This document shows positions 1,872-18,591 of a DNA stretch of 64,000 nucleotides, piece after piece. Numbering within the stretch: position 1 is the stretch's first letter; every line of letters begins with the position of its first letter. The notes beneath the pieces were generated by a model. It had not been told where the DNA came from. It saw only the letters and a program-made list of their open reading frames with translations, and made no database searches. The DNA comes from Candidatus Bathyarchaeota archaeon (lineage in GTDB: Archaea > Thermoproteota > Bathyarchaeia > Bathyarchaeales > Bathycorpusculaceae), in the NCBI GenBank assembly GCA_026014745.1, contig JAOZHS010000001.1:1-64000 (forward strand), read 5' to 3'. The translations under genes were made by a program, and so were the position numbers.

Positions 1872-3038
1872 TTAAGCCTTTACTTTGACCCAGTCTAGGA
1901 ACTTTGTTGGGTCTGCTTTTTTGTTTGCTGTTATGTAGTTAGTGACGTCTTTGAGGGTCTTAACTGCTGCTGGATGCATCATCATGAATACGTCGACACC
2001 TGCCGTGAGCAGGGTAAGCGCGGTGGTGACTTCCCAAAGTGGGCCTCTAAGTTCGCGTGGTTCCCAATCAGCTGACATCTTTAGCCATGCTTCACGGGCT
2101 GCCCAAGCGTTGGTTGTACCTGAGCTCATGGGCTGTGCGAGTTCCATGTCGCCCATTAATCCGCCTATGCGTGCACGTTCCATGTTAGTGAATGCGTAAT
2201 CTAAACCGTAACCTAAGGCTGCGGTGGTTAAGTCCATGACGATGTCTTCGCGTGATAGGTGGTCAAAGAGGCGCCTGTTTAGTTCGCGTGCAAAGTTGAG
2301 GTCCATTGGTGTGAATGCGAGTACTGCGTTGCCAGCTTTCTTGATGAATTTAGCACATTTTTCGCCATCCATGTCGCGTGTGACTGAGCTAATTAGGAAG
2401 CGTTCACCGGGGAATTGTGCACATACCTCTTCGAACAGAGCAGTGTCTTTTACTGGGTCACCGCATCCGCCGATTACGAGGGGTACGTCAACTGCTTGCA
2501 GAACCTTCTCGATGGTTTTGCATGCGTCTTTTGGTGATGCATCTTTGAGTAGTGGGTCAACGCTGATGAGGTGCATTGTAACCATGTCTGCGCCGAACTT
2601 TTCGACTGCAAGTTTTGCCCATGCTGCTGGGTCGCCGACGACGTCTTTAACGTGCATCTTGACGGCCTTGGACAGGGGAACTTCCATGTCGAAAACGTCT
2701 AAAGTTACGATTGGTTTGTGTGGTGTTGGGTTCTCAAAGGAATAGAAAGCAGGAGAGAGTTCTCCGCCGATAGTGACTGTTTTGCCGCGTGTGCCGCCAT
2801 CGCTCTTGGTTGCGCCTAGTTTGACTGTGGCGATTTTGTTGGGGTATTTCTCGATTGGTAGTTTGAATTGTGACTGTAGTAGACTTGTTGGTTTGCCTGT
2901 TGAGACGCCTGCGGGAAGCTTGAGCTTTGGTAGGACAGTTGCTGCCATGCCAGGGGTAAAGAGGATTTCCAGCTCCTTAGCTTCAAGTTGGAAGTCTTCC
3001 AACTCTATCTGCTTGAACTTTGCTAGCGCTGCTAGCAA
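1872..3038 (-). CDS. cdhD: CODH/ACS corrinoid iron-sulfur protein, small (delta) subunit
   Basis: Small subunit of the corrinoid iron-sulfur protein, a TIM-barrel partner of CdhE in methyl transfer to acetyl-CoA synthase. The segment K-F-K-Q-I-E-L-E-D-F near the start, the G-x-C-G-D-P-x-K-D barrel motif and the T-T-A-A-L-G-Y-G stretch are typical of the family. The start is uncertain. TTG at 3038 is the first canonical codon but has no clear ribosome site. The frame stays open upstream to a TGA at 3102-3104, and these codons read like protein (L-K-K-S-E-G-L-Q-L-S-D-D-L). A GGTGA overlapping that stop sits 6 nt before an ACG at 3095, so translation may start there (407 aa instead of 388). It lies between cdhC and cdhE. 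Confidence 0.93.
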   Translation of the reverse strand: MLAALAKFKQIELEDFQLEAKELEILFTPGMAATVLPKLKLPAGVSTGKPTSLLQSQFKLPIEKYPNKIATVKLGATKSDGGTRGKTVTIGGELSPAFYSFENPTPHKPIVTLDVFDMEVPLSKAVKMHVKDVVGDPAAWAKLAVEKFGADMVTMHLISVDPLLKDASPKDACKTIEKVLQAVDVPLVIGGCGDPVKDTALFEEVCAQFPGERFLISSVTRDMDGEKCAKFIKKAGNAVLAFTPMDLNFARELNRRLFDHLSREDIVMDLTTAALGYGLDYAFTNMERARIGGLMGDMELAQPMSSGTTNAWAAREAWLKMSADWEPRELRGPLWEVTTALTLLTAGVDVFMMMHPAAVKTLKDVTNYITANKKADPTKFLDWVKVKA

Positions 3039-3110
3039 GTCATCGGAGAGCTGTAGGCCCTCGCTTTTCTTTAGATCGTTGTTGTGGTGAGTCGTTTGAG
3101 TTCACCAGGT

Positions 3111-16144: not shown

Positions 16145-17332
16145 TTAGAAGAAGGGTTCATTATCATATAGGCACTTAATAAGGGTTGGATACACGTCTA
16201 GGATTGCTTCGTGGAAACTGGTTTTTTCTGCGCGACGCAGGATATTGGCGCGTATTGTGTCGGAGAGGCTGCCTGATTCGATTCGGCGCGCAATCAGGGG
16301 AAGATAGGGTTTTTCGTCGGGTGTGGCGTGTTGTTGAGCGATTTTTAGGTAGTATTGGCAGACTTGCCGCGCGATTTTTCCATGCGGATTAGCAACTGAG
16401 GCGGATAAGCCATGTTTGATTATGGCGTTGAAGTCGCTGACCAAAACATTATGGGGTAATAGTTCTGTCTCGCATTCAAGCAGCCCCCTTAGGGCGGCTC
16501 GCACAAAACAAGCCAACGCAACATCAGATTTTATGCATTCCTGCTCATCCATCACTCGGACCTCCAGCGCGGAACGGTCGAAACGGAAAATCACGCCCCG
16601 GGAGTTTACCCATTCCCGATTCAGCAGAATCTTATCCGCACCCTTCGCTGCCAAATCTCTGCTGTATCCACCAATGATGTCATGCTTGTACTGGCTTAAA
16701 GAGGACGCATATTCGGGGATAACGTCACCTGTTATGGAGGGGACTTGTTTTTGGCTAAGTTTGTAGAATTGAAGGCGATTATCAATATCGCCGCCGGGTT
16801 TCCCCTCATACATGGGCGAAGAAGCAGCGATGGCGGGGAGATAAACGCAGAGGTTGGTGAGCAGGTTGTGGGTTTTTATGGCGTCGGTTTCGGTTTGGAA
16901 GGGCAAATTGAGGTGGAAGCTTTGGATGTTTAGCCAGCCGTGCTGGTTGAGGTTGAAGATTTTTCCATACGCATCGTAGATTTGGCGGTGGTAGTGAGGC
17001 CAGATGGCTGTCTCGTGAAGTCTAAGCAAGGGATGCATACCGGTACCCAGCAATTTAGCCCCATGCTTCTCCACAATGCCGGCTAGTGTTGTGACGGCGG
17101 CTTGCATGGTTTGCTCGAAATCAACTGGCGACTTGAACGGCTCGTTAGCTTTGATTTCCATAACGTGCAACTGAAGCTCTTTGCCGAACGTGAATTGTGG
17201 GCATTCTATGAAGTTGATTATTCGTCCGCCGTAGGCTTTGATGATTTTGTCTGCGATAGGCAGAGGTTTTAGGTCTGCGCCTACCAGAGAGTATTCGTGT
17301 TCGGGTCCTATGACTTCGAGCGGTTTATACGT
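16145..17332 (-). CDS. Glutamate-cysteine ligase-like (GCS2) carboxylate-amine ligase
   Basis: GCS2/YbdK-type ligase of the glutamine-synthetase fold, which makes a gamma-glutamyl or similar amide bond with ATP. The first ATG in frame (17161) would remove the family's N-terminal motif. Upstream codons read without a break as L-E-V-I-G-P-E-H-E-Y-S-L-V, P-L-P-I-A-D-K-I-I-K-A and G-K-E-L-Q-L-H-V, which are core family segments with the metal-binding Glu/His. The frame closes at a TAA near 17356 with no ATG, GTG or TTG between. A GAGG site 7 nt before an ACG at 17332 suggests that start (395 aa). Later motifs include M-H-P-L-L-R-L-H and S-F-H-L-N-L-P-F. The gene follows the antiporter and is divergent from the ATP-grasp pair. 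Confidence 0.8.
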   Translation of the reverse strand, partial: TYKPLEVIGPEHEYSLVGADLKPLPIADKIIKAYGGRIINFIECPQFTFGKELQLHVMEIKANEPFKSPVDFEQTMQAAVTTLAGIVEKHGAKLLGTGMHPLLRLHETAIWPHYHRQIYDAYGKIFNLNQHGWLNIQSFHLNLPFQTETDAIKTHNLLTNLCVYLPAIAASSPMYEGKPGGDIDNRLQFYKLSQKQVPSITGDVIPEYASSLSQYKHDIIGGYSRDLAAKGADKILLNREWVNSRGVIFRFDRSALEVRVMDEQECIKSDVALACFVRAALRGLLECETELLPHNVLVSDFNAIIKHGLSASVANPHGKIARQVCQYYLKIAQQHATPDEKPYLPLIARRIESGSLSDTIRANILRRAEKTSFHEAILDVYPTLIKCLYDNEPFF

Positions 17333-17382
17333 AAGATTTCCTCGTTTTGGGTTTTCTCTTATGCGTTATGTTGGAGTCTGGT

Positions 17383-18591
17383 TTAAAGCTGACTATGATT
17401 ATCGTCCCAATCTGGCCAAACAGATTTCGTTTTGGGTTCACTTCTAAACGAGAATTTGATAAGATAGGGAGTTAAGAAAGCGGTAATCATGGTGGCGACC
17501 CCGATTATGGGCAGCAGAAAGTCACTTATCACGCCTAAGTCCTGACCTGCCTTTACGATTATGAAGGCGAATTCGCCGATTTGAGCCATCCCTAACCCGA
17601 CGCGCATGGATGTTTTTTTGTCGTAGCCAAACATGCGGGTTCCAAAGCCGCAACTTACGAGTTTTGTCAACACCACCGCGATGGTTATGACGATTGCTGG
17701 AAACCAATAGGAGGTGATTAGGGTAATATCCATCAAAGCGCCCATGGAGACGAAGAAAATGGCTCCAAACACGATTTTGAAAGGCCCAATTTCGCGGTTA
17801 ATTTCTTCGCGTACTCTTGAGCGGGCAAATACTACGCCGATTATGAAGGCGCCGATGGCTGCTGAGAAGCCGATTTGGGTCGCTAGGATTGCAAAGGCAA
17901 AGCAGATGCCTAACATAAAGATGTAGAGTAATTCTTGGTTTTGCACTTTGGCTATGCGGTTGGTGACTTTGGGTAAGAAAAGGCTGCCGATAACTAAGGT
18001 TCCTCCTATGAAAATCACCAGTTTCGCCACTAACCACATAGTGTCGGTTACGGAGATGACGTTGGCTACTGCAAAGTTTTGAAGCATCGCTAAAATAATC
18101 ACCACGACAACGTCTTCGACAACTAGGATGCCTAGCATGATGGTGGATGAGATTTCTTTCATGTGTCCTGAGTCGCTTAGAACTTTGGCGATGATGGTGG
18201 TGCTGCTGCTGGCGAGAGCGGCGCCCAAAAACAATGTGTCATACATGCCCCAATGCAAAGAGGCGCCAACGGCGTAGCTTATCAGAAGCATAGCGGTTAT
18301 TTCTATGGCAGAGACCCCGATTACTACGCGCCCGATGGAGCGGAGTTTCTGTATGGGAAATTCTAAGCCAACAGTGAAAAGTAGCAAAATTACGCCAATT
18401 TCAGCAAACACGTTTAGGAAGTCGATGTTGTTGACGAAGCTAAATGGCGGCGAGTAAGGCCCAATGATTATGCCTGCGATTAGGTAACCGATGACGAGGG
18501 GTTGTTTTAGCTTGTAGAATATGAATGCAACCACTGAAGCGATAACCATTAGGACAGCAAGGTCAGTGATGATTTGAAGCTCAAAGCTCAT
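17383..18591 (-). CDS. Kef-type cation:proton antiporter (CPA2), membrane domain only
   Basis: A 402-residue integral membrane protein with 12-13 hydrophobic segments, of the Na+/H+ or K+/H+ antiporter (KefB/KefC-like) family. Family signs: Q-P-L-V-I-G-Y-L-I-A-G-I-I-I-G-P (residues 30-45), F-T-V-G-L-E-F (about 75), A-L-A-S-S-S-T-T-I-I-A-K-V-L-S-D (about 122-137), G-I-L-V-V-E-D-V-V-V-V (ion-binding E-D), and M-A-Q-I-G-E-F-A-F-I (about 335). It ends soon after the last helix, so the RCK/TrkA-N domain of full Kef proteins (about 600 aa) is absent. The GCS2-like gene starts about 50 bp downstream; Kef channels in bacteria respond to glutathione, which makes the pairing notable. Confidence 0.92.
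   Translation of the reverse strand: MSFELQIITDLAVLMVIASVVAFIFYKLKQPLVIGYLIAGIIIGPYSPPFSFVNNIDFLNVFAEIGVILLLFTVGLEFPIQKLRSIGRVVIGVSAIEITAMLLISYAVGASLHWGMYDTLFLGAALASSSTTIIAKVLSDSGHMKEISSTIMLGILVVEDVVVVIILAMLQNFAVANVISVTDTMWLVAKLVIFIGGTLVIGSLFLPKVTNRIAKVQNQELLYIFMLGICFAFAILATQIGFSAAIGAFIIGVVFARSRVREEINREIGPFKIVFGAIFFVSMGALMDITLITSYWFPAIVITIAVVLTKLVSCGFGTRMFGYDKKTSMRVGLGMAQIGEFAFIIVKAGQDLGVISDFLLPIIGVATMITAFLTPYLIKFSFRSEPKTKSVWPDWDDNHSQL

Follow-up and report, generated by a model that had tools for sequence, protein, structure and literature searches.

The weak AUU start codon of bacterial infC serves autocontrol, and ACG, a poor start codon in other systems, initiates AAV VP2, yeast ALA1 and the upstream ORF of plant GGP; some ACG starts are conserved. 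The AUU start of infC, which encodes initiation factor IF3, is itself conserved (Butler 1987, as cited in PMC9845219), and the same article cites an ACG start for the Sendai virus C' protein. In chloroplasts, editing of ACG to AUG is known (PMC9845219). A survey of 36 prokaryote groups found AUG starts replaced almost only by GUG and UUG, with 2 CUG and 1 AUU among 61,358 and ACG unmentioned (PMC5622118). No report of an archaeal ACG start was found in the literature searched, with most subscription journals outside its reach.

The gene gcs2 lies in a window of 64,000 nucleotides from a Candidatus Bathyarchaeota archaeon, the whole stretch of DNA analysed here. Its stop-to-stop frame (16145-17365, minus strand, 406 aa, translated as RIRENPKRGNLTYKPLEVIGPEHEYS...PLPIAD...GKELQLHVME) is open throughout, and the in-frame TAA that bounds it upstream is at 17366-17368. 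The sequence-only reading had reported no canonical start back to this stop, and a scan of this frame agrees: no ATG, GTG or TTG is found between the TAA and codon 55, counted from an ACG at 17330-17332. The GAGG noticed in the same reading, a Shine-Dalgarno-like motif 7 nt before the ACG, is located at 17340-17343. Counted from the ACG the gene (16145-17332) has 395 codons plus a stop. Its first downstream canonical codon is a TTG at 17168-17170 (codon 55) and not an ATG as had been supposed; the ATG at 17159-17161 (codon 58) is the next. The accompanying prediction that automated calling would truncate the protein was right, as a standard gene caller takes the TTG and gives a 341-aa protein without the conserved N-terminal motif.

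Upstream of gcs2, an antiporter gene ends about 50 nt before the ACG. A TATA-like box, TTTAAA (17382-17387, minus strand, about -55 from the ACG), overlaps the end of this gene and was assigned by sequence match only. No Rfam match to a structured RNA was found at the gcs2 start. Two nucleotides after the gcs2 stop lies a gene for a putative zinc- or iron-chelating protein with a CxxCxxCC motif (PF03692; 15588-16142, minus strand), which may be co-transcribed with gcs2.

Judged by profile match and predicted fold, the gcs2 product is a putative GCS2/YbdK-like carboxylate-amine ligase. PF04107 (GCS2) matches residues 56-295 of the 406-aa frame (E 8.5e-33, 114.4 bits against a gathering cut-off of 21), and truncating the frame at the TTG weakens the match. 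The YbdK/GCL fold is seen in the predicted model (pLDDT 82; Foldseek E 3.5e-13 to 1tt4), which resembles YbdK (1r8g, 1tt4) and plant glutamate-cysteine ligase (2gwc) at TM-scores of 0.67-0.71 by query length. Against the NCBIfam YbdK and GshA models the best score was 40.1 bits, short of the curated cut-off of 176.4, so the product is not classed as a true YbdK or GshA. It shares sequence match and fold with YbdK/glutamate-cysteine ligase family 2 (PF04107), but is a distinct bathyarchaeal branch.

Core family residues had been read in the frame upstream of the first ATG, and the alignment bears this out. Among 17 sequences from Bathyarchaeota and Archaeoglobales, G9, P10, E11, E13, D28, K32, N40, K51, E52 and Q54 (numbered from the ACG) are invariant, and all ten, including GPExE and KE, lie upstream of the TTG. 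The first strand of the model (residues 11-17, EHEYSLV) is located there too, and a TTG start would strip it away along with one helix and two further strands. The first eight residues of the model have low confidence, so the fold by itself does not fix the start. In Archaeoglobales homologues an ATG immediately precedes GPEHEF, at a point six codons into the reading from the bathyarchaeal ACG, and 12 of 39 relatives have ATG, GTG or TTG at codons 7-8 from the ACG, as would fit translation from a downstream codon (in the window gene the TTG at 17170 or the ATG at 17161), with the upstream block (including TYKPLEVIGPEHEY) untranslated or non-essential. Such a start is very unlikely: in the window gene it could not come before codon 55, at the cost of the invariant residues and structural elements above. 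The codons from the ACG to GPEHE also vary mostly synonymously, like coding sequence, and the first canonical codon after the ACG shifts from codon 7 to codon 58 among relatives. On the strength of these comparisons, it is highly probable that gcs2 translation starts at the ACG, where ribosomes would be placed by the GAGG element on a short leader, and that the protein thereby includes the GPEHE N-terminus.

When the family, the order, the class and public genome contigs were searched, 57 distinct homologous start regions were recovered. In 39 of these, all distinct and drawn from independent bathyarchaeal assemblies, ACG occupies the start position. Because the sources are mostly metagenome assemblies with common ancestry, the 39 cannot be counted as so many independent observations, and the proper control is synonymous divergence at other columns. 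Codon 1 is ACG in 37 of 37 full-length genes, whereas in the 37 other four-fold columns with a conserved amino acid the commonest codon reaches 27-65%, none of the 56 two-fold columns is fixed, and ACG makes up 19.8% of threonine codons within the same genes. Selection for a threonine side chain would not produce such a pattern. The full-length relatives have 394-399 codons counted from the ACG, and it is at this codon, in most cases preceded by GAGG, that sequence conservation sets in. Of the 39 genes, 34 match the Shine-Dalgarno sequence over 4 nt or more at start spacing (14% in shuffles). Most relatives have TATA-like motifs, by sequence match, at about -45 to -50 or -55 to -72, which implies short leaders.

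Since nearly all close relatives share the ACG, it appears as a conserved start, neither a local defect nor a sequencing error. The sequence-only reading had offered two possibilities, use of the ACG or a lost start. The first is strongly favoured. An intact frame, conserved in more than 20 genera, speaks against a lost start or pseudogene, and the agreement of independent assemblies against an assembly error; both were rejected. A fortieth ACG (L046) is followed after about 40 nt by a one-base insertion (CACCGAATTT) that breaks the frame and probably reflects misassembly or recent pseudogene formation.

An upstream start on a longer leader was likewise rejected. Canonical codons upstream in frame occur in 13 of the 39 genes, at scattered positions and often behind a TATA-like box, and none is present from the in-frame stop to the ACG in the other 26, the window gene included. 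In one relative (L006) the in-frame stop stands two codons before the ACG (TAA TCT ACG). Twelve of the 39, again with the window gene, have no ATG, GTG or TTG in any frame within 40 nt upstream, which leaves no room for a frameshifted leader frame.

Canonical starts were detected at or near the homologous site in a few genomes. An ATG exactly at the ACG position, the sign of a genuine start that the sequence-only reading had hoped to see in relatives, is present in the bathyarchaeal homologue L075 (ATG TAC GAG), while in L050, L112, L070 and L073 an ATG is found one or two codons upstream. In L070 and L073 (two genomes of one genus) it is two codons up and is followed by drifted codons (ATG ACT CCT; ATG ACG CCG), the old ACG position now being CCT or CCG. 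At this position distant homologues carry Lys, Asn or another residue, with a canonical start close by. In the gene tree the ACG genes form one supported clade (97/98), with only the L070/L073 pair and L046 as exceptions, so that a single gain of ACG and a single change to ATG suffice.

Further ACG starts were located by comparing 400-kb stretches of related genomes. The second one in the window belongs to cdhD (acetyl-CoA decarbonylase/synthase delta subunit; frame 1872-3101, gene 1872-3095, minus strand; NCBIfam TIGR00381 above cut-off). Its ACG (3093-3095) lies 6 nt behind a Shine-Dalgarno-like GGTGA (3102-3106), and there is no canonical start before the conserved N-terminus. At this one aligned position behind GGTGA, ACG is found in 14 genomes, TTG in 12, ATG in 2 and GTG in 2, i.e. 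16 of 30 are canonical. In 9 of the 14 ACG cases the GTG within the Shine-Dalgarno element shares the frame and is a possible alternative start; in the other 5, the window genome included, it is out of frame and no other in-frame start exists.

The hflX gene (L137:16188-17456, G000:C1:236188-237456; TIGR03156 above cut-off) has its ACG behind GGAGG. Across 115 bathyarchaeal genomes the start position is ACG in 101, ATA in 3, ATG in 2, ATC in 2 and ATT in 1, and four of the remaining six have ATA or ATT one place upstream at normal Shine-Dalgarno spacing. Relatives L282 and L307 have a canonical start at this position. No canonical in-frame codon is present upstream in 112 of the 115 (three have one). 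Outside the class, most Thermoproteota examined have canonical hflX starts.

These substitutions bear on two other ways of decoding the ACG. Editing of C to U in the mRNA before translation, as in plant chloroplasts, would turn ACG, exactly the codon it could rescue, into AUG, and the base preceding the ACG is never G in the 39 gcs2 genes. It is still highly improbable, since C-to-U changes cannot yield AUG from the ATA, ATC and ATT of hflX relatives; to our knowledge, mRNA editing of this start-codon kind has not been described in archaea. A dedicated initiator tRNA with anticodon CGU could read ACG, and the genome does encode a tRNA with this anticodon. Judged by eye, however, that tRNA resembles an ordinary Thr elongator, the sole initiator-like tRNA (L092) has the anticodon CAU, and a CGU initiator would not read the hflX substitutes either, which makes such a tRNA extremely improbable. 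The CAU initiator, the elongator-like CGU tRNA and the hflX codons ATA, ATC and ATT point most simply to the normal initiator tRNA starting at ACG despite a mismatch, with help from the Shine-Dalgarno element. We infer that the ordinary methionine initiator reads ACG through a mismatch at the middle position and that the first residue is Met.

Because the end of an MBF1-like gene (named by eye) runs into hflX, one may ask whether the ACG is a start at all. It might be kept by the overlapping upstream gene, or by a -1 frameshift at CGA AAG behind a Shine-Dalgarno-like element. The MBF1-like frame reads CGA AAG at hflX in many genomes, and CGA AAG is a frameshift site in Bacillus subtilis cdd, as listed under reference 18 in PMC5009743. 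An ATG would often create a stop (TGA) in the MBF1-like frame, so the overlap could explain part of the hflX ACG. As a general account it is vanishingly improbable: in 32 hflX ACG genes (among them L355, which comes from outside the class and carries an ATG four codons upstream) the upstream stop falls at or before the ACG, so that overlap and frameshift both fail to apply; gcs2 does not overlap any gene upstream of it; and in cdhD the ACG swaps with TTG, ATG and GTG.

The fourth putative ACG start is that of a gene for a DUF2795 protein (L140:11811-12098, G000:C1:291811-292098, minus strand), where the codon lies behind GGAGGTGA. Most same-genus copies have ACG behind GGAGGTG and two (L248, L250) have ATG. 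This is the weakest of the four ACG cases, because the GTG of the Shine-Dalgarno element is in frame in a few copies.

Two further genes with unusual start regions were observed. An FAD-dependent, geranylgeranyl-reductase-like oxidoreductase (named by eye; G065:C1 at about 225410, L190, plus strand) has ACG behind AGGTGA, and its GxGxxG motif is not preceded by any canonical start. A sugar-nucleotidyltransferase-like gene (G018:C56 at about 166060, L174; G000:C1 44989-46107) has an apparent CTG start, and its G029 counterpart has GTG. Candidates G000_338 and G000_694 were set aside since they resembled wrong-frame or start-misaligned hits.

ACG starts are rare, not common. A scan for aligned swaps between canonical and other starts uncovered no ACG swaps among the sampled pairs; it missed cdhD, for which G018 has an in-frame GTG inside the Shine-Dalgarno element and the G029 copy lies outside the sampled stretch. 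Four ACG genes from a sample of about 400 kb, together with the lack of casual swaps between ACG and canonical codons, point to this rarity. The enrichment of codons behind Shine-Dalgarno motifs in a single genome (four 400-kb samples) gave a ratio of 0.44 for ACG, at low power with only 51 ATG hits. The sequence comparisons argue strongly that ACG serves Bathyarchaeia as a fourth, rarely used start codon in gcs2, cdhD, hflX and the DUF2795 gene.

ACG is outside the start set of standard callers, and proteins beginning at it would therefore be annotated in truncated form; for gcs2 the conserved N-terminal motif would be lost. That the third base has stayed fixed while the family diverged is difficult to account for if the weak start brings no benefit. 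By analogy with the AUU of infC, the weak codon in gcs2 and hflX may be retained because it sets an upper limit to expression or couples it to initiation stringency (aIF1-type proofreading), a conjecture to which we give not quite an even chance. Slightly less likely is the wider proposal that ACG would be a fourth start codon genome-wide and that AUG, GUG and UUG would be kept out of gcs2 and hflX by selection, making them a stringency-dependent class, the counterpart of infC. HflX, as a GTPase that associates with ribosomes, might then act back on its own start codon. The ACG genes give concrete material for studying how start codons are assessed by archaeal initiation factors and whether genes take advantage of that.

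Compared with known systems, the bathyarchaeal genes share the codon with eukaryotic and viral ACG starts, but those rely on scanning and not on Shine-Dalgarno positioning. Chloroplast genes likewise have a genomic ACG, which is edited to AUG there, whereas the ATA, ATC and ATT of hflX argue against editing here. The differences from infC are that the codon is ACG and not of the AUU type, that the genes are archaeal and that gcs2 and cdhD are metabolic. In other respects infC is close: particular genes have a conserved non-AUG start behind a Shine-Dalgarno element at start spacing, no canonical start is in place, the codon itself is conserved and some relatives have a canonical start. In hflX, moreover, several weak codons replace one another and AUG is nearly avoided. 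Both gcs2 and hflX appear to combine, as infC does, a strong Shine-Dalgarno element with a weak start codon that is barred from improving.
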